Positions 41,416 to 63,508 of a DNA stretch of 64,000 nt are shown piece by piece. The position numbers and the translations under genes were made by a program. Positions within the stretch are counted from its first letter, which is position 1. Every line of letters starts with the position of its first letter. Location of the stretch: contig CAJQPY010000003.1 of assembly GCA_905480335.1 (NCBI GenBank), forward strand, positions 1-64,000, written 5' to 3'. This DNA comes from an uncultured Ilumatobacter sp. GTDB lineage: Bacteria; Actinomycetota; Acidimicrobiia; Acidimicrobiales; Ilumatobacteraceae. Under the pieces are notes generated by a model, which did no database searches, was not told where the DNA came from, and saw only the letters and a program-made list of their open reading frames with translations.

Positions 41416-42288
41416 TCAGTTGCCGACGTATTGGTAGCCGAAGCGTCCCTTAATGCAGAGGTTGCCGTGGGTGACCGAGTGGTCGACCGGCGAGGTGACC
41501 TTGACGATCTCATTGTCCTGAACGTGCAACTCGAGATTGCAGCCAACACCACAGTACGAACAGACCGTCGTCGTCACTGTCTGCTCCTCCTCGCGCCAGC
41601 TTTCGGACCGACGGAGATCGAATTCACTCTTGAATTGCAGGGCGTTCGTCGGGCAAACCGCCACACAGTTGCCGCAGTACACACAGGCAGAGTCTGGCAG
41701 CACAACGTCGAACTCAGTTGAGACCCGGTTGTCGAACCCACGCCCCGCCACTGCGATGGCGAAGGTGTGCTGCGCATCATCTCCACAAGCCTCGACGCAC
41801 TTGTAGCAGAGCACGCACTTGTCGTAGTCCCGAATGTAAAGCTCGTCCTGGATACGAATCGGTTCCTCAATCACCTCTCGGTCGTCGACGTATCGAGTCA
41901 CGTCGGCCTCATAGCGAACCGAGTACTGGTTTATCTCGGGAGCTTGGCTCAGGTCAACACTCGATCCAAGGAACTCAAGCACCATCTTGCGACTGTGGCG
42001 CACCCGGTCTGAGTCGGTCTGGATCTCCATCCCGGCCTCTGCCAGGCGCGAGCAAGACGGCACGAGTGTGCGATTGCCTGTCACTTCGACGACACATACT
42101 CGACAGACGTTGACTGGGGTAAGGTTCTCGGCGTAGCAGATCGTCGGCGTGTCAATGCCGCTCGCAGTGCACGCGTCAAGGATCGTGGCGCCCCGAGCCA
42201 CCGACACGTCATTGTTATTGATGCGCACCGTCACCGACTCAACGGCCGACTCGCCCTCAGCGTGAGTGTCAGACTCGATGGTGGTCAT
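41416..42288 (-). CDS. Formate dehydrogenase iron-sulfur/molybdenum-domain-I protein (split N-terminus of FdhA)
   Basis: A 290-residue electron-transfer protein equal to the N-terminal third of NAD-dependent formate dehydrogenase alpha subunits. It carries a plant-type [2Fe-2S] site (C51, C62, C65, C79), two [4Fe-4S] sites (C158/161/164/168 and C202/205/208/212), and the Mo-enzyme [4Fe-4S] domain TTVCSYCGVGCNLELHV with C243, C246, C250 and C278. It stops at GRFGYQYVGN, where fused homologues run on into the molybdopterin-binding domains. Those are encoded separately upstream at 44082-46055. Its ATG overlaps the stop of the NuoEF-like gene by four bases. It should assemble with the catalytic polypeptide in the cytoplasm to pass electrons to the diaphorase. 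Confidence 0.88.
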   Translation of the reverse strand: MTTIESDTHAEGESAVESVTVRINNNDVSVARGATILDACTASGIDTPTICYAENLTPVNVCRVCVVEVTGNRTLVPSCSRLAEAGMEIQTDSDRVRHSRKMVLEFLGSSVDLSQAPEINQYSVRYEADVTRYVDDREVIEEPIRIQDELYIRDYDKCVLCYKCVEACGDDAQHTFAIAVAGRGFDNRVSTEFDVVLPDSACVYCGNCVAVCPTNALQFKSEFDLRRSESWREEEQTVTTTVCSYCGVGCNLELHVQDNEIVKVTSPVDHSVTHGNLCIKGRFGYQYVGN

Positions 42289-44069
42289 GGGCGATCTCCG
42301 ACCAGACCAAGGCGGATCGCCGACTGCACTGCCCCGGACGCAGTGTGTCCCAATCCGCAGATTGAGGCGTCGCGCATGACCGTCGCCATGTCATCAATCA
42401 GCGTGTTGCGTTCATCGGACAGCGCGCCGTTGGCAGCCATCTCAACGAGTACTTCGTGCTGCCGCGTCACACCCACGCGACACGGAACACACTGACCGCA
42501 CGATTCATTCTTGAAGAACTCAGCGATACGGAGAACGAGCGCGGTGAAGTCAACGGTGTCGTCGAACAACGTGATGACCCCCGAGCCGAGCGTCGCTCCC
42601 GCATCGCGGACTGCCTCAAGGGAAAGTTCGAGATCGAGTTGATCGGGTCCGACAAACACCCCGGCGGCCCCGCCGAGCAGAACCGCTCGTGTCATCCCGG
42701 TCGACCCGCCTGCGAGGTCAATGAGATCACCGAGTGCAATACCGAACGGGACTTCGTACAGCCCCGGGACCCTGACGTGGCCCGACAGACAGAACAGCCG
42801 ATGCCCGCTCGAACGTTCGGAACCGAGCGTGCGGTAGTGGTCACCGCCGACCTCAAGTAGGTCGAGCACATTGAGCAGCGTCTCGGGATTGTTGACCGCT
42901 GTTGGCTCGCCGAACAAACCGTAGGTGGTCGGAAAGGGCGGCTTGTTGCGCGGCTCACCGCGATATCCCTCGATCGATTCCATTAGTGCGGTCTCCTCGC
43001 CACAGATGTAGGCGCCCGCCCCTCTCCGGAGTTCGATATCAAAACGAGCACCGGAGTCCATCACGTTGTCGCCGAGCAGTCCGGCGATACGGCACTGTTC
43101 GATGGCGTTGCGTAATCGCGTCGTTGCCAACGGGTACTCGCCACGGATGTAGATCCAGCCATTGTCGGCGCCCACCGTCAGACCGGCGATTGTGAGTGAC
43201 TCGATCAACGCAAACGGATCGTTCTCCATCACGATTCGGTCCTTAAACGTTCCCGGTTCAGATTCGTCAGCATTAGCAATGACGTGTTTCGGACGACCCC
43301 GTTCGTCAGCGACAGCACGCCACTTGACGGCGGTCGGGAACGCTGCGCCACCCCGACCTAACAGTTCGGCAGATTTAACCTCGTCGATCACGGCATCCGA
43401 GCCGATTTCGATCGCATAACGCAACATCGCGTAGCCGCCGTGATCATGGTACGACTGCAGCGAAGTGGGGTCGACGACCCCGACACGGTGGAGCAGCCGG
43501 AGTTTTGACGACCCGTGTTGTGGCAGACGGTACGACGTCGGGTCGGCGATGCTTGCAGCGTCAGCTGGGACCCGGTCCGGTTCTGCGCGGCCTTGGATGA
43601 ACTGCGCTGGGGCACGCTCGCACTGCCCGATGCAGGGTCCACGGTGAACCCGCTCGCCTTCGGCTTCAAGCGAGCGAGCGAGCGCCTCGGCACCAGCGAT
43701 ATGACATGACGTATCCATGCAGACGTGGTGCACCGATTGGCCGTGGGCCGGGTCGGTGGTGCGGAACAATTCGTAGAATGTGGCAACACCGAACCCCTCC
43801 GCCGGAGGAACCTGGAGAGCCCCACAGAGGTAGTTGAGGCCACCCGGACTAATCCAGCCGGCCTCGGCCTGCAGGGCATGAAGTCCGGGTAGGAGGAGGT
43901 GACGACGCTCGCGGCGACGTTCGGTGCCCCCGCGGACGACACGTTCGGTCTCGTAGACCACGGCGTGGTCAGCTGGCGCGATCACTGCGTCGACGACAGC
44001 ACGTTCGGCATCTGTCGAGGTGTCGACCGACAGCTTCAGGTCAGCCACGCTGCCTCCAGCGTTCCGCAT
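42285..44069 (-). CDS. Formate dehydrogenase diaphorase subunit, NuoE-NuoF fusion
   Basis: A 594-residue NAD-reducing subunit. Residues about 20-165 are NuoE/FdsG-like thioredoxin-fold [2Fe-2S] with C117, C122, C146 and C150. Residues about 200-594 are NuoF/FdsB-like: FMN site LGRGGAAFPTAVKW (238-250), NADH motif RGAGAYICGEETAL (349-362), and a [4Fe-4S] site ESCGQCVPC (C524, C527, C530) with C571. Electrons from formate would pass through these clusters to NAD+. Separate genes are usual in fds operons; fusion is also seen in some HoxF and FdhB proteins. It starts 12 bases after the fdhA stop and overlaps the iron-sulfur gene downstream. Confidence 0.92.
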   Translation of the reverse strand: MRNAGGSVADLKLSVDTSTDAERAVVDAVIAPADHAVVYETERVVRGGTERRRERRHLLLPGLHALQAEAGWISPGGLNYLCGALQVPPAEGFGVATFYELFRTTDPAHGQSVHHVCMDTSCHIAGAEALARSLEAEGERVHRGPCIGQCERAPAQFIQGRAEPDRVPADAASIADPTSYRLPQHGSSKLRLLHRVGVVDPTSLQSYHDHGGYAMLRYAIEIGSDAVIDEVKSAELLGRGGAAFPTAVKWRAVADERGRPKHVIANADESEPGTFKDRIVMENDPFALIESLTIAGLTVGADNGWIYIRGEYPLATTRLRNAIEQCRIAGLLGDNVMDSGARFDIELRRGAGAYICGEETALMESIEGYRGEPRNKPPFPTTYGLFGEPTAVNNPETLLNVLDLLEVGGDHYRTLGSERSSGHRLFCLSGHVRVPGLYEVPFGIALGDLIDLAGGSTGMTRAVLLGGAAGVFVGPDQLDLELSLEAVRDAGATLGSGVITLFDDTVDFTALVLRIAEFFKNESCGQCVPCRVGVTRQHEVLVEMAANGALSDERNTLIDDMATVMRDASICGLGHTASGAVQSAIRLGLVGDRP

Positions 44070-44081
44070 TCGGACGGAACA

Positions 44082-46055
44082 TCAGGAGCCGGCCATGGGG
44101 ATTGGGAAGTCGATTTTGTCGATACGGATAGCGGCAGCCTTGAATTCGGAGGTACCCGACCGCTTGTCCCATGCGTCATTGGTCAACTTGTTGATGTCGA
44201 CAAGATCGGGGAAGTGATAGGTGGTGAAGGTCAGCCCAATCGGAATGTCGAACTGGAAACGCACTGCCATTTCGACCGAGCCACGCGGAGAAGACACGCG
44301 AACCCGCTCTCCGTCGCTCAGCCCTAGGGATTCGCCGTCGACGGGATTGATGTCAAGCGCTTCGCCGTAGCGAATCGGTGATGTGAATCCGTTCGACTGC
44401 ACACCGGTGTTGTACGAGTCGAGCGACCGCCCGGTCGTGAGGCGCAGCGGGAACTCCTCGGTGAGCTGTTCCTTCGGCCCCTCGTGTTCCACGACCGAGA
44501 AGGGCGCCGGCGCACGACCCCCGAGATCGTCGGCCCAGAGCCATCCGTGCAGGAAGGGTGAACCCGGGTGATCGAGGCTCGGACACGGCCACTGGAGGCC
44601 ACCGGCCTCGAGTCGCTCATACGACATGCCTGCATGCAGCGGCGACAAGGAACGCAACTCGTCCCACAGCGCTTCCGGCTCATTTGTGCCGAGATCAACG
44701 CCCATTCGGTCGGCGAGATCGATAATGATGTCGATGTCGTGGCGCGCCTCACCCGGCGGCGTGACCGCGCCGCGAACGCGCTGCACTCGCCGCTCCGACG
44801 ACGTGACAGTGCCATCCGACTCGGCCCAAGCCACCGATGCAGGCAGTACGACGTCAGCCAACTGGGCGGTCCGGGTCAGGAAGATGTCCTGAACCACGAG
44901 GCAGTCGAGACCGCTCAGCAACGCACGAGCACGGTCGACGTCGGCCTCAGAGTCGGCCGGGTTCTCCCCCACCACGTAGACGGCCGTCAGCTCGCTGCGT
45001 TCCATCGCCTCGAACATGAGGGTGAGATGGATCCCGGGGGTCGGATTGAGGCCCATTCCGTAGGCCGCTTCAAACTTGGTGCGATCGGCGTCATCATCAA
45101 TCCGCTGGAATCCTGGCAACTTGTCCGGGAGCGCTCCCATATCGCCGCCACCCTGCACGTTGTTCTGTCCGCGCAGCGGAACCAGCCCCGAACCCCAGCG
45201 ACCGACATGACCGGTCAGGAGTGCGAGGTTGCACAACGAGAGCACGTTGTCGACTGCGTTGTGATGTTCGGTGATGCCGAGAGTCCAAAGGATCTGGCTT
45301 TTCCCGCCCGTGGCGTAGGCGTGAGCAACCTCGCGGATCGCTGTTGCGGGCACGCCAGTGATCTCAGCGGCAACGTCGAGGGTGTAGGGCTCGACGGCAG
45401 CAGCAAAGTCCTCGTAGCCTCGGGTCGAGCGGATGATGAAGTCGTCGTTGGCGAGGCCGGCGTGGATGATCTCGCGAGCGATCGCATTTGCGAGCGCAAT
45501 ATCGGTGCCGACGTCGATCCCGAGCCACAGATCGGCGAACTTCGACGACGATGTCCGCCGCGGGTCAACGCTGTACATTCTCGCGCCGTTGTCGAGGCCC
45601 TTCATCAAGTGATGGAAGAAGATCGGGTGCGCTTCGCGAGCGTTCGAGCCCCAGAGCAGAATCACGTCTGCTTCCTCAATCTCTGCGTACGAGACTGTCC
45701 CGCCACCTGCACCGAACACTGTCGCCAGACCGACGACCGAGGGAGCGTGTCAAGTCCGATTGCAGGAGTCGATGTTGTTCGACCCCATGGCCATGCGTGC
45801 AAACTTCTGGGCGAGGTAGTTCACCTCGTTCGTAGCCTTCGAGCACGAGAACATGCCGAAGGCGTTGGGCCGCGTCCCGTCAACGATTGCGGTGCGGGCG
45901 ACGCTGAGCCCTGCTGCTGCCCGGTCAAGCGCTTCGTCCCACGTCGCCGACCGCAGCGGCGCATCTTTCGTGTCGCGCACCATCGGGGTGGTTAGTCGCG
46001 GCAACTTAGGTGCCGCGACTTGTTCACGATGCGGGCGTTTCGATCGCTTCCCCAT
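44082..46055 (-). CDS. Formate dehydrogenase catalytic subunit, selenocysteine-containing (UGA at 45750-45752)
   Basis: One 657-residue gene read through an in-frame TGA at codon 102. Upstream of it the frame runs ATWDEALDRAAAGLS to SCNRT; directly after it HAPSVVGLATVFGAGGGTVS. In formate dehydrogenases the residue between RT/RV and H(A/G)PS is the molybdenum-ligating Cys or Sec, so UGA here encodes Sec. Later motifs (ILLWGSNAREAHPIFFHHLM, YSVDPRRTSSSKFADLWL, LRGQNNVQGGGDMGALP, LTTGRSLDSYNTGVQS) cover the bis-MGD binding domains. The N-terminal [4Fe-4S] domain is absent and encoded at 41416-42288. The end is DKIDFPIPMAGS. No Tat signal, so cytoplasmic. First gene of a three-gene operon; ATG at 46055 has no clear ribosome site. 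Confidence 0.9.
45721..45737 (-). promoter_or_regulatory. Bacterial SECIS element in the formate dehydrogenase gene
   Basis: In the mRNA, GUCGUC-GGUCU-GGCGAC forms a 6-base stem (one G-U pair) with apical loop GGUCU. The loop begins 18 bases after the UGA, the same sequence and distance as the GGUCU loop read by SelB in E. coli fdhF. The host would need SelA, SelB, SelC and SelD, none of which is in this window. Confidence 0.8.
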
Positions 46056-58908: not shown

Positions 58909-61746
58909 TCATAGCCGATAGGCGTCGAGCGTCGGCTTGAGGGGACGGGCGTACCAGAGTGGACGGCGCAGACCCGAGTCATTGGTGGTGCCCGCAGGGC
59001 GGGTCTTCTCCATCCACTCGAGGTATGCCTCGCGCGACTTGGCGGTGTCCACAACGACATCGCCGTACTTATCGTCCGCCTCAGCCGGGGTTACCCGCAC
59101 TCGCTGATGCCAACACTGCATCCCCGAGATCGGGTCCGGTTGCACACAGAAAGTTGCGTTCTGATGTACTCCGGTGTCGTGCCACCAAATCCGTCCGGTA
59201 TCGGGATCCGATGACTCATACGACGTCATGTTTTTCGGGTCCCCGCCCTCCCGTCTAAGCGTCCAAGTCGTGCCCTGCTGATCGATCGTCGCCTTTCCGG
59301 CGGCCCAGTTCCGACCTTCAGTCTCGTCAAGACGCCAGCGGCCCATGTGGTGCGACGCAGCGACGACACCCGGTCGAATGCCTTCGGTTCGCCATGCCTG
59401 GATCACAAAGTGGCCGATACGTGTCGAGATGCGCACTAATCCGCTCTCCTCGATCTCTAACTTCTCAGCATCGGACGGGTGGATCCACAGCGGGTGCCGG
59501 TGACTGATTTCGTTCAACCACTTCGAGTTGGCTGAGCGGGTGTGAATAAGAGTCGGGATGCGGAAGGTAGGCAACAGAATTCGTTCGGTGCCGGCGATGT
59601 CCATGTCCTCCCAGTGCACGTGGCTCGGGATCCACTTCGGCGTCGAATACTCGGGCCAGCCCCACTCTTTAAGTGTGGTCGAGAACAGCTCGAGCTTCTT
59701 TGACGGCGTCGGAAAGCCCTCCTTGATTTCGCCGTCGATCTCGACAGCGGGCGAGCCATCGCCGAGCTTCGCGAGTTCGGTTACCTCGAACGACTCCTCA
59801 GAACCGTCAAACGTCCCGATCGTGCCTGGCTTGCGGAACACGCCGTGCTCGTCCTTGACGCAGTCGGCAACGGCTTCGGCTGACACGGGCTTCTCGTAGG
59901 GCACGTACGGGTCGGTCGGCACCGCGAATGAGCCGCGATCACGCATGAACTCCAGGGGCTTTTGACCAGCTTCCTCCGCTGCCTCGGCCAGTCCGGGCAC
60001 CTCTTCGGAGAAGATGTGGCCGTAGTACTCGTCGACACTGATCGGATTGCCGGGACGCTCATCGGATTCGAACCACTGACGAATTCCCATCGAGCCATCA
60101 GGGTCAATCTTCCACGATAGGTCGATCCAAAACTCGTTCTCTTCCCAGACTTCACCGGGGTTGTACTCGTGACTCCGAGCATCGGGCCCTACCGGTTCGC
60201 CGTTCTTGATCTCGGCGTACCGCCGGAACACTGACTGGCGGAAGCCAATCCACTTGCCGGCGTGCGTCTCGTACGAAGACACGTCGTGGCGCTCGGCACC
60301 GACGCCCATCGGCAGCACATAGTCCGCGAACCACGACGTCTCCGACCATGTCGGCGTGAGCGCCACGTGGCAGTTGACCTTCTCCGGATCTTTCAACGCC
60401 TCAAGCCAGGTGAAGCCGTCGGGGTTGGTCCAGATCGGGTTGTAGACACGGGAGAAGTAAGTGTCGAGCTGGCCGCGCCCCTCGTTCAGAAAGTGCGGCA
60501 GAAGAATCGACATTTCGTGGTAGGCCAGCGGAAATTCTTTGGGCCAGCTGAGCTCGTTCCACTTCTCAAGCGGTGGAGCACCCTTCGGCTGGTGCGCAGC
60601 AAATTTATTCCAACCGTTGCCCGACGTACCGCCAACGGTTGCGACCGAGCCGGTGAGCACATTGAGGAAGAACAACGAACGAGCGACTTGCCAGCCACCC
60701 TGGTTGCCTGCACCGGCAGCGCGCCAGTTGTGGCTGGCGAACTTGGTGGGGTGTTTTCCGATGATCGTTGCGATCTCGCGAATCTCGTCTGCGGAAACGC
60801 CAGTGATCCGCTCAGCTTCTTCGACGGTGTACTCGCTGTAGTGATCCTTCAATGCCGCTTCAACTGACTCGAAGGTCCGTGGCATGTCGGGGTAAAGCTC
60901 AGCTAGGAAGGTTTCCCAGTTCACCCATCGCCGGACGAAGTCACGTTCCCACGTGCCGTTCTCAAGCAGCAAATGTGCGATCGACAGACACAGGAACGCC
61001 TCGGTGCCGGGCCAGGTTGGCAGCCAGTGGTCAGCTTTAGAACCGGTGTTACTCAAACGCGGGTCAACGCAGATCACCGTGGCGCCTTTGTCTTGTGCCT
61101 CCATGATCCGCTGTGCATGCGGGTTGAAGTAATGGCCGGCTTCAAGGTGCGACGAGATGAGAAAGATCACCTCGGCGTTTGCGAAATCCGACGACGGGCG
61201 GTCGTGGCCCATCCAGCTCTGGTAGCCGATTCGAGCGTTCGACGAGCAAATGTTGGTGTGGCTGTTTTGCCCGTCGGTGCCCCACGCCTTCAACACGCGA
61301 TCGGCGTAACCGTCTTCGCCCGGACGGCCGACGTGATACATCACCTCGTTGTGGCGGTCCTCCATGAAAGCCGTACGGATCCGCTCACCGATCTCGCTGA
61401 GTGCTTGTTCCCAGCTGATGCGTTCCCACTGGCCCGAACCGCGGTCCCCCGTCTGCTTAAGCGGGTACAAGATGCGCTCCTGATCGTAAATCTGGTTCAG
61501 CGTCGCCGGGCCCTTTGCACAGTTACGGCCGCGCGATGCGGGATGCTCGGGGTTGCCCTCGACTTTCGAGATCTCACCTGTCTCATTGTCGAAGTACGCG
61601 AGGAGGCCACACGCGGCCTCGCAGTTGAAGCACGTGGTCGGAACGAGCGTGTAGTTACGCTCCTGCTTCTCCGGCCACATTTTCGCATCAAGCTCGGTCC
61701 AGTTGTGCCACTTCGAATGCGGCGGGTACTTGTTCAGATCGGTCAT
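58909..61746 (-). CDS. Molybdopterin oxidoreductase catalytic subunit (PsrA/SoeA-like)
   Basis: A 945-residue bis-MGD enzyme. The N-terminal [4Fe-4S] site is TTCFNCEAACGLLAYF (C39, C42, C46) with C76 in GRNCAKGP. NSHTNICSSNARIGYQSW has the likely molybdenum-ligand region (C167 or a nearby Ser). VIFLISSHLEAGHYFNPHAQ, VDPRLSNTGSKADHWLP and the C-terminal HHMGRWRLDETEGRN domain follow. No Tat signal is present, so the enzyme should sit in the cytoplasm, as sulfite-oxidising SoeA and unlike periplasmic PsrA/PhsA. The ATG at 61746 has GGAG six bases ahead (CGGAGCACACG), which decides it over one 12 codons upstream. Substrate is inferred only: sulfite, polysulfide, thiosulfate or formate are possible. 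Confidence 0.9.
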   Translation of the reverse strand: MTDLNKYPPHSKWHNWTELDAKMWPEKQERNYTLVPTTCFNCEAACGLLAYFDNETGEISKVEGNPEHPASRGRNCAKGPATLNQIYDQERILYPLKQTGDRGSGQWERISWEQALSEIGERIRTAFMEDRHNEVMYHVGRPGEDGYADRVLKAWGTDGQNSHTNICSSNARIGYQSWMGHDRPSSDFANAEVIFLISSHLEAGHYFNPHAQRIMEAQDKGATVICVDPRLSNTGSKADHWLPTWPGTEAFLCLSIAHLLLENGTWERDFVRRWVNWETFLAELYPDMPRTFESVEAALKDHYSEYTVEEAERITGVSADEIREIATIIGKHPTKFASHNWRAAGAGNQGGWQVARSLFFLNVLTGSVATVGGTSGNGWNKFAAHQPKGAPPLEKWNELSWPKEFPLAYHEMSILLPHFLNEGRGQLDTYFSRVYNPIWTNPDGFTWLEALKDPEKVNCHVALTPTWSETSWFADYVLPMGVGAERHDVSSYETHAGKWIGFRQSVFRRYAEIKNGEPVGPDARSHEYNPGEVWEENEFWIDLSWKIDPDGSMGIRQWFESDERPGNPISVDEYYGHIFSEEVPGLAEAAEEAGQKPLEFMRDRGSFAVPTDPYVPYEKPVSAEAVADCVKDEHGVFRKPGTIGTFDGSEESFEVTELAKLGDGSPAVEIDGEIKEGFPTPSKKLELFSTTLKEWGWPEYSTPKWIPSHVHWEDMDIAGTERILLPTFRIPTLIHTRSANSKWLNEISHRHPLWIHPSDAEKLEIEESGLVRISTRIGHFVIQAWRTEGIRPGVVAASHHMGRWRLDETEGRNWAAGKATIDQQGTTWTLRREGGDPKNMTSYESSDPDTGRIWWHDTGVHQNATFCVQPDPISGMQCWHQRVRVTPAEADDKYGDVVVDTAKSREAYLEWMEKTRPAGTTNDSGLRRPLWYARPLKPTLDAYRL

Positions 61747-61825
61747 CGTGTGCTCCGTACTCTGGGGAAGGCGCAGTGCCATTGTGCGACCGGTGTTTGA
61801 GCCCGGGCGGCGAGCGGTTGACGGG

Positions 61826-63358
61826 TCATGAGAGAGGAACGGATTGGCCGGCGCGGACAAAAGCGGTTTCGGACAGCCACATCCCGACGAGTGCGAGCGC
61901 GCCCGCCATCGCCGGCAATAGGGCGGAAGTGTTCTCAACCGACAGCGCTATGACGGCAAGCCCGCCAGGCGCTATCACGCCGAACGACAGCCCCCAGTTG
62001 AACCAACCGGCCTGCTCACCCTTGGTCATTGAAGCGATCGCAAGTTCGACATGGCGACTCCCGTGCGACGCCAGCTCGACCCAGGTCAGGAAACCGACCG
62101 CCGCGACACCCCCAAGCAACGCCCACCACACGGCTCGTTGCGATGGGACGTTCATGAACAGGTCAAGAATCGCATACGCCGACGCTCCGGCGACGACTGC
62201 CCGCGCCAGCAGCAATGGGAGAAGAAGGGGAGTCTGCCACAGGTCGCGACCTTCGCATTGGGCGAATAGGAACGCCGTGTAGCCGGCCGTCGCAGCGCCG
62301 AGGATGGCTGCCGGAACAGCCACCATCTTCAGTGCAACCGCGGCATCGGCCACACCGAGGATCCACCAGATTCCACAGACCGCAGCGAACACTGCCAGCA
62401 CGTAAGCCCCTTTGACCAGCCACGAGTCAAAGTTCGACCGAGTGAGCAGGAAGTAAAACCGGCCAGGCTGTTTCAGGTCACCAATCAGCAGCGCACCAGT
62501 GATGGCCATGAACACGCCCGCAACCATCGGCGGCACGATGCCGACCGAAGCCTGCTCATCGGCATGACCCAACACGATCATCAGCGCAGCCATCAGCATG
62601 ATCCCGCCTGCGATTGCCTTGGTGACTAGATATCCCGACACCATCCGATCCCACGTCGTCTTGTGTGAAGTGGTGTACGCAGTGCGAGCAACAACGCCCG
62701 GGTCTCCCTGGCCGTGCTCGTCGAGCAGCGGTAACTGACGATGATTCGCCGTGGTATCGGCCCAGATCATCCCGTCTGCCGCGATCTTCGTACGCGTCGG
62801 GTCGAGCGATGCCTGGTCGGCACCCTTATAAAACACCTTTGGCTTGGTGTTCTGGTCGGGAGTCCGCACTGCGACGTCCTCGCGCCCGATCATCTTGCCG
62901 ACTGGATCCTCCGGGTTGTCGAAGTCCACGACTTTGATCGCCTCAGTCGGACAAACGACCACGCAGGAGGGTGCGAGGTTCATCTCCACGCGGTGATTAC
63001 AGAAGTTGCACTTTTGCGCAGTGTTGGTCTCGGGGTTGATGTACAGCGCGTCATACGGACAGGCGTTCATGCATGACTTGCAACCGATGCAGTTGTCGTC
63101 CTGGAAGTCGACGACGCCGTTGTCAGCCCGGAATAGCGCATTTGTCGGACAGATCGTCATACACGGTGCGTCTTCGCATTGGTTGCAGCGCATCACCGAG
63201 AACTTGCGGCTGGCGTTTGGAAACGAGCCGGTCTCGATGTACTTGACCCACGTACGGTTTACGCCGAGCGGCACGTCGTGCTCGCTCTTGCACGCGATAG
63301 TGCACGCGTGGCACCCGATACACGAATCGCTATCAAGGAGGAAGCCGAGGCGGGTCAT
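61826..63358 (-). CDS. Fused four-cluster ferredoxin / NrfD-type membrane anchor
   Basis: A 510-residue electron-transfer subunit. Residues 1-180 are a DmsB/PsrB/SoeB-like protein with four [4Fe-4S] motifs: CIGCHACTIAC (C13, C16, C19, C23), CNQCEDAPCMTIC, CIGCKSCMNAC and CNFCNHRVEMNLAPSCVVVC. Residues about 240-510 have seven to eight membrane helices of the NrfD/DmsC/PsrC type, the quinone-interacting anchor. The two parts are usually separate genes. It would pass electrons between the catalytic subunit (downstream, 79 bases) and the quinone pool. ATG at 63358 was chosen because MTRLGFLLDSDSCIGC matches ferredoxin starts; the frame is open 44 codons further, across the operator. Confidence 0.92.
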   Translation of the reverse strand: MTRLGFLLDSDSCIGCHACTIACKSEHDVPLGVNRTWVKYIETGSFPNASRKFSVMRCNQCEDAPCMTICPTNALFRADNGVVDFQDDNCIGCKSCMNACPYDALYINPETNTAQKCNFCNHRVEMNLAPSCVVVCPTEAIKVVDFDNPEDPVGKMIGREDVAVRTPDQNTKPKVFYKGADQASLDPTRTKIAADGMIWADTTANHRQLPLLDEHGQGDPGVVARTAYTTSHKTTWDRMVSGYLVTKAIAGGIMLMAALMIVLGHADEQASVGIVPPMVAGVFMAITGALLIGDLKQPGRFYFLLTRSNFDSWLVKGAYVLAVFAAVCGIWWILGVADAAVALKMVAVPAAILGAATAGYTAFLFAQCEGRDLWQTPLLLPLLLARAVVAGASAYAILDLFMNVPSQRAVWWALLGGVAAVGFLTWVELASHGSRHVELAIASMTKGEQAGWFNWGLSFGVIAPGGLAVIALSVENTSALLPAMAGALALVGMWLSETAFVRAGQSVPLS

Positions 63359-63448
63359 CGCATCAGCCGAGTTCGTTGGCCGTCGAACATCATTTCGCCA
63401 TTGTGGCGTACCGCCAAGGTCGCCGCTAGGGGCCGTTGTTCTTGATGG

Positions 63449-63477
63449 CCATAGGTTCAAGCTATGGCATGCCATAG
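63449..63477. promoter_or_regulatory. Triple palindromic half-sites in the divergent LysR promoter
   Basis: CCATAG (63449-63454), CTATGG (63462-63467) and CCATAG (63472-63477) alternate in orientation. The first pair forms CCATAG-N7-CTATGG, containing a T-N11-A LysR box; the second pair forms the perfect 16-base palindrome CTATGGCATGCCATAG. It lies between the divergent starts at 63358 and 63509, a classic place for LysR autoregulation and activation. Confidence 0.7.
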
Positions 63478-63508
63478 GGACGCTCTTCATGATCGATATC
63501 CTGATGTT

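Follow-up and report, generated by a model that had tools for sequence, protein, structure and literature searches.

A probable selenocysteine-containing formate dehydrogenase with a divided alpha subunit in an Ilumatobacter genome

The window analysed here is a stretch of 64,000 nucleotides from an uncultured Ilumatobacter sp., whose genome assembly (2.95 Mb, 51 contigs) is 94% complete. Its minus strand carries three genes attributable to a formate dehydrogenase (FDH), and two short features lie inside the catalytic gene.

41416..42288, minus strand: N-terminal iron-sulfur part of FdhA (protein P0002), 290 aa; PF13510, Fer4, and PF04879 at residues 237-288
42285..44069, minus strand: fused FdhG-FdhB (NuoE-NuoF-like), 594 aa; PF01257, PF01512, PF10531, PF10589
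44082..46055, minus strand: fdhA, catalytic subunit with molybdopterin domains only (protein P0001), 657 aa; predicted selenocysteine (Sec) at residue 102, TGA translated as U
45721..45737, minus strand: candidate bacterial SECIS (bSECIS) hairpin core with a 6-bp stem, loop GGUCU at 45727-45731; pairs and loop present in 90/90 TGA loci
45750..45752, minus strand: in-frame TGA very probably read as Sec, at the position of the Mo/W ligand; TGA in relatives, TGC or TGT in stop-free orthologues

Read from 46055 to 44082 on the minus strand, fdhA is a single frame of 657 codons followed by a terminal TGA. Its translation contains one internal stop, the TGA at 45752-45750, which is codon 102 and stands in the context SCNRT-U-HAPSVVGL. 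The initial annotation had described one frame interrupted only by this TGA, and translation agrees. The two open reading frames that it listed exist as given, except that position 45749 is the stop-to-stop limit of the second one, whose first start codon is a GTG at 45719. It had also held that homology is intact on both sides, which would not be the case for a frameshift. Indeed, positions 51-672 of the Fdh-alpha profile TIGR01591 match residues 18-645 of P0001 in one alignment across the TGA, and the best PDB match, 7qv7 (FdhF of a hydrogen-dependent CO2 reductase), covers residues 20-649 in a single stretch that also crosses it. The residues around the TGA had been likened to the FDH active site. 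This likeness holds, since the TGA falls at the metal-ligand position and U-HAP agrees with UHxP, the motif given for Sec FDHs, under TIGR01553, in Table 1 of a 2026 review (PMC13188914). Taken as a single chain, P0001 scores 605.6 bits, under the curated TIGR01591 cut-off of 666.25, as expected because the first 48 profile positions sit in another gene.

This other gene encodes P0002. The Molybdop_Fe4S4 domain (PF04879), which normally starts the catalytic region of FdhA, is absent from P0001, whose domains are PF00384 and PF01568, and ends P0002 instead, where a ferredoxin region of 2Fe-2S and 4Fe-4S type precedes it. TIGR01591 is found in two pieces, its positions 1-48 in P0002 and 51-672 in P0001. 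Compared with FdhA of 6tg9, residues 20-288 of P0002 match positions 26-303 and P0001 matches 307-933. The gene between them encodes a fusion of FdhG and FdhB with 2Fe-2S thioredoxin-like, FMN/NAD and 4Fe-4S domains, which matches the FDH beta chains 6vw7_B, 6tg9_B and 7e5z_B. The FMN/NAD (NuoF-like) and 2Fe-2S (NuoE-like) modules that form a diaphorase are thus found in the same operon. The NAD-dependence proposed in the initial annotation stands as far as this module (PF01512, PF10589, PF01257) is concerned, while the specificity for NAD+ is what the protein families suggest.

The canonical order of FDH genes is G, B, A. Here the order is permuted: catalytic part of A, then GB, then N-terminal part of A. 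The same arrangement, all on one strand, is found in 77 of 93 loci, including all four loci with a cysteine codon that are described below. Fifteen others break off too early past fdhA for the order to be read; the second gene has begun in 11 of them, and 4 extend no more than 224 nt. The last locus, L112 (50% identity), has room for both partner genes and neither follows fdhA. In L112 alone among 94 rows, moreover, the Fe4S4 domain lies directly upstream of the catalytic part. As L112 is both unsplit and distant, the split seems to mark a closer subfamily.

The TGA is widely conserved. A contig scan gave 480 confirmed relatives, and the aligned codon is TGA in 80/80 of the best-scoring loci (about 70-85% identity), which are related to each other and are not a random draw. 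Most of these 80 have record titles naming Acidimicrobiia, Acidimicrobiales, Acidimicrobiaceae or Ilumatobacter(aceae); other titles read Candidatus Microthrix, Candidatus Poriferisocius, Actinomycetes/Actinomycetota, marine group Sva0996 or plain 'bacterium'. In a cultured relative, Ilumatobacter nonamiensis, FdhA shares 87% identity with the present one. Two wider surveys yield stop counts, the position of the TGA being checked in the fetched loci only. Among 121 genomes drawn from the family of the source genome, 42 of the 44 rows at at least 59% identity have a TGA inside the frame, and the remaining 2 are fragments beginning past the codon. Sixteen more distant rows, at most 38% identical, are stop-free over frames of 704-1695 codons. 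The phylum survey covered 396 genomes, in which 40 rows reach at least 60% identity: 35 have a TGA (4 of them with a further stop), 4 are stop-free and 1 starts after the codon. Those listed at 41-57% identity are mostly with TGA, some without. Thirteen hand-picked phylum loci were fetched, and the codon is TGA in 9 and Cys in 4.

Two loci kept in these counts have additional in-frame stops. The family row of genome G099 holds three TGA and one TAA; in its locus (L111), further stops lie close together at codons 274 and 280, perhaps owing to a local assembly frameshift. The extra stop at codon 11 of L094 may be an assembly fault.

The UGA is followed by a putative bSECIS hairpin. Nucleotides 16-32 from the UGA read GUCGUC-GGUCU-GGCGAC, with the loop starting 18 nt after the UGA. 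The six pairs and the GGUCU loop are kept in 90/90 TGA loci (the source locus, the 80 scanned and 9 fetched), which share ancestry and are not independent trials. The core occurs in five versions, found in 80, 6, 2, 1 and 1 loci, among them GUGGUC-GGUCU-GGCCAC, GUGAUC-GGUCU-GAUCAC and GUCACC-GGUCU-GGUGGC, in which the two sides of the stem change together. Double-sided compensation affects two stem pairs, with G-C replacing C-G in 7 loci and A-U replacing G-C in 2. Two further pairs changed on one side only, with pairing kept. When random synonymous codons were drawn for each gene, the six pairs arose in 3727/18000 draws, and pairs plus loop in 560/18000. Furthermore, codons 105-112 show the lowest synonymous variation among the 147 eight-codon windows scored (81 loci).

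The bacterial SECIS model asks for a loop of 3-9 nt with a G in its first two positions, an upper stem of 4-16 bp, 16-37 nt from UGA to loop and a minimum free energy (MFE) of at most -7.5 kcal/mol (PMC13188914). The hairpin lies within these limits with its 5-nt loop beginning with G, its 6-bp stem, its distance of 18 nt and, for a 39-nt fold that includes a lower stem, -10.2 kcal/mol. This last value is not below that of shuffled sequences (z 0.30), and folds of 43, 53 and 91 nt show no excess stability over shuffles either (z 0.84, 1.44 and 0.87). Longer stretches fold otherwise outside the core, which is unformed in the 91-nt fold. In the same way, the MFE fold of the first 38 nt of L112, a TGA locus, is another structure, though the six pairs are possible there. 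A scan of the 64-kb window with Rfam at gathering scores returned two tRNAs and nothing else. As single-sequence folding gives no excess stability, the case for the hairpin rests on the comparative evidence, which is strong: covariation and the frozen synonymous sites.

In four stop-free orthologues, all from a single genus (f32 g71, genomes of 6.1-9.7 Mb), the codon is TGC or TGT. The loop reads GGACU in three cases and GGGCU in one, GGUCU being found in 0/4. These orthologues keep 5, 5, 3 and 4 of the stem pairs, and all six in 0/4. In a tree of 41 of the 94 rows, drawn with L112 outermost (midpoint root), the four Cys rows group together (support 100/100) and are nested in a group of seven rows (99/93) that includes three TGA rows, these TGA neighbours belonging to the family of the source genome. 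These data fit a scenario in which Sec came first and was later exchanged for Cys, the hairpin decaying too; as a single genus is concerned, it would count as one event. At E <= 1e-9, no tRNA-Sec is detected in three of the four Cys-form genomes. The fourth, G479 (locus L101), combines the Cys form with a tRNA-Sec, perhaps because it encodes other selenoproteins or is in the course of losing the trait.

The initial annotation had predicted Sec decoding and had named the absence of all sel genes as an argument against it. The source genome contains a tRNA-Sec, selA, selB and selD, which support the prediction together with the covarying hairpin. The tRNA-Sec, at position 93312 of contig C6, scores 66.5 bits against a gathering score of 47 and is called tRNA-SeC with anticodon tca by ARAGORN. 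On the same contig, selA (398.8 bits, cut-off 267.9) adjoins selB (275.4 bits, cut-off 242.25) at 41819-44874, the two frames overlapping by 4 nt. The selD gene (365.7 bits, cut-off 125) is on contig C31 (L018:1402-2448, minus strand), and fdhD is on contig C12. SelD has its own in-frame TGA (U20, SHGAG-U-GCK), which fits UxxK, the motif listed for this protein (PMC13188914), and the 46 nt from this TGA fold well (z -2.40, two hairpins). It is therefore likely, judging from sequence features, that selD is a second selenoprotein gene, and at least two genes of this genome look like selenoprotein genes. No selenoproteins are more widespread among bacteria than FdhA and SelD (PMC5029168).

Sec machinery also accompanies the TGA gene across the family. 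Once G078, whose fragment misses the codon, is excluded, selB exceeds its cut-off in 40 of 41 genomes with the TGA gene, and tRNA-Sec is found in 34 of them. Either of the two is present in 40/41 of these genomes versus 55/79 of the others (Fisher p 2.3e-4, kinship ignored). The exception is G036, an 89%-complete draft with neither selB nor tRNA-Sec; it is one of the 7/41 in which no tRNA-Sec was found with stricter filters. The presence of Sec machinery in most genomes that do not have this fdhA means that other selenoproteins probably occur there.

A Cys-type gene that had suffered a nonsense mutation or a sequencing error, or had become a pseudogene, would also show a lone in-frame stop in a single assembly. 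Such an accident would hardly put a TGA at this codon in every one of the 80 best relatives and a TGA inside each of the 42 family rows that span the codon; moreover, frame and homology continue past the TGA and the synonymous sites right after it are frozen, so that we give this explanation practically no weight. An open frame on either side of the TGA would be equally compatible with a genome-wide reassignment of TGA, or with its readthrough by a near-cognate tRNA (e.g., for Trp or Cys) without selenium. But TGA is the terminal codon of both fdhA and selD and thus still seems to terminate translation. In addition, the genes of the Sec system are present and the GGUCU hairpin separates TGA loci (90/90) from Cys loci (0/4). 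Reassignment or readthrough is as improbable as a defective gene.

Sec UGA codons compete with termination. The UGA could therefore also act as a selenium switch, Sec being inserted when selenium is sufficient and a 101-aa product being released otherwise. The accumulation of formate without selenium in Actinomycetospora (PMC7176365) points in this direction, at the level of a strain that has three Sec FDHs, but nothing was seen that would mark the 101-aa product as functional. Such a switch, which we regard as rather unlikely, could coexist with Sec decoding and does not compete with it as an explanation. The UGA of codon 102 is thus very probably read as Sec.

As a whole, the operon is best interpreted as encoding a cytoplasmic, NAD-linked Mo (or W) formate dehydrogenase with Sec in its catalytic subunit, a reading drawn from sequence comparison to which we assign a probability of about 97%. 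During translation, the ribosome would meet the UGA at codon 102 and then the small hairpin, the loop of which starts 18 nt downstream of the UGA. By analogy with the known families, SelB carrying Sec-tRNA-Sec would recognise this hairpin, so that Sec would be inserted instead of termination. Sec would then ligate the metal of the molybdopterin cofactor, as in related enzymes, and formate would be oxidized to CO2. Electrons would travel along the Fe-S clusters of the N-terminal subunit (encoded at 41416-42288) and reach the FMN/NAD module (encoded at 42285-44069), where NAD+ would be reduced. This path, like the NAD+ specificity and the cytoplasmic location, is deduced from the protein families. 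The physiological role is perhaps the oxidation of formate derived from one-carbon metabolism.

It also seems somewhat more probable than otherwise that these genes represent a Sec FDH subfamily of Acidimicrobiia and several other actinobacterial families. In this subfamily, the alpha subunit would be cut between its [4Fe-4S] and molybdopterin domains, the operon circularly permuted and the active-site cluster supplied in trans, and one genus would have exchanged Sec for Cys with loss of the loop. A search of the literature found nothing joining formate dehydrogenase, Acidimicrobiia and selenium, and no description of a split FDH alpha subunit was found in titles or abstract openings. Selenocysteine and Acidimicrobiia do occur together in a single paper, and the one linking Ilumatobacter with formate dehydrogenase deals with a biocatalytic cascade. 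By record titles, the present data place a selenium-dependent FDH in Acidimicrobiia and close kin. If this is true, formate turnover through this FDH requires a supply of selenium. With its alpha subunit in two parts, the enzyme would also be a naturally occurring case for examining whether docking in trans is feasible for the Fe-S domain beside the active site, which could be of use to engineers of FDHs for CO2 reduction. Besides, annotation that ignores Sec would cut fdhA in two.

The window holds a second molybdopterin oxidoreductase frame on the minus strand, within 58909-63490. It has 1009 aa and no internal stop, its best matches are thiosulfate/DMSO reductase-like and below cut-offs, and it overlaps a frame of 554 aa whose N-terminal region resembles TtrB/NrfC ferredoxins.

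Among solved enzymes, the FdsGBA-type NAD-dependent FDHs (6tg9/6tga, 6vw7, 9wxb, 7e5z) have in common with this operon the modules FdsG, FdsB and both halves of FdsA. The 572-aa beta chain of 7e5z matches both halves of FdhG-FdhB (query 49-586), so that this fusion is not new. However, FdhA is one chain in these enzymes, whereas two genes encode it here, that of the catalytic half leading, and their FdsA presumably has Cys where Sec is predicted here. The best-scoring solved chain is FdhF of 7qv7, E. coli FDH-H (1aa6) being fifth among the matches listed. E. coli FdhF is the classic UGA-Sec enzyme; it and FdhF of 7qv7 work in other complexes. The matches to 7qv7 and 1aa6 start at chain positions 63 and 59 (query 20 and 18), which indicates about 41-43 extra N-terminal residues relative to P0001.

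The closest likeness in description is found in Actinomycetospora chiangmaiensis DSM 45062, for which three Sec FDHs were reported in 2020 (PMC7176365). One of them, FDH3, is called cytoplasmic and NAD-dependent, and its subunits FdhA3, FdhB3 and FdhC3 (640, 614 and 316 aa) were all seen by proteomics (PMC7176365). It has Sec in its alpha subunit, as predicted for the present enzyme, and its subunits compare with 657, 594 and 290 aa here, a likeness of sizes and description. It differs in belonging to another actinobacterial lineage, and the part of the paper that deals with it does not discuss a split alpha subunit. FdhA3 appears at 640 aa under a RefSeq accession in Table 1 of this paper (PMC7176365), which suggests that annotation may not always break such genes. 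Without a selenium supplement this strain accumulates about 0.6 mol of formate per mol, whereas hardly any accumulates when selenium is added (PMC7176365), an effect of the whole strain and not specific to FDH3 because three Sec FDHs are present. Sec decoding in actinobacteria, including a cytoplasmic NAD-dependent Sec FDH, is thus already in print (PMC7176365), and the finding presented here amounts to another lineage for a known enzyme.
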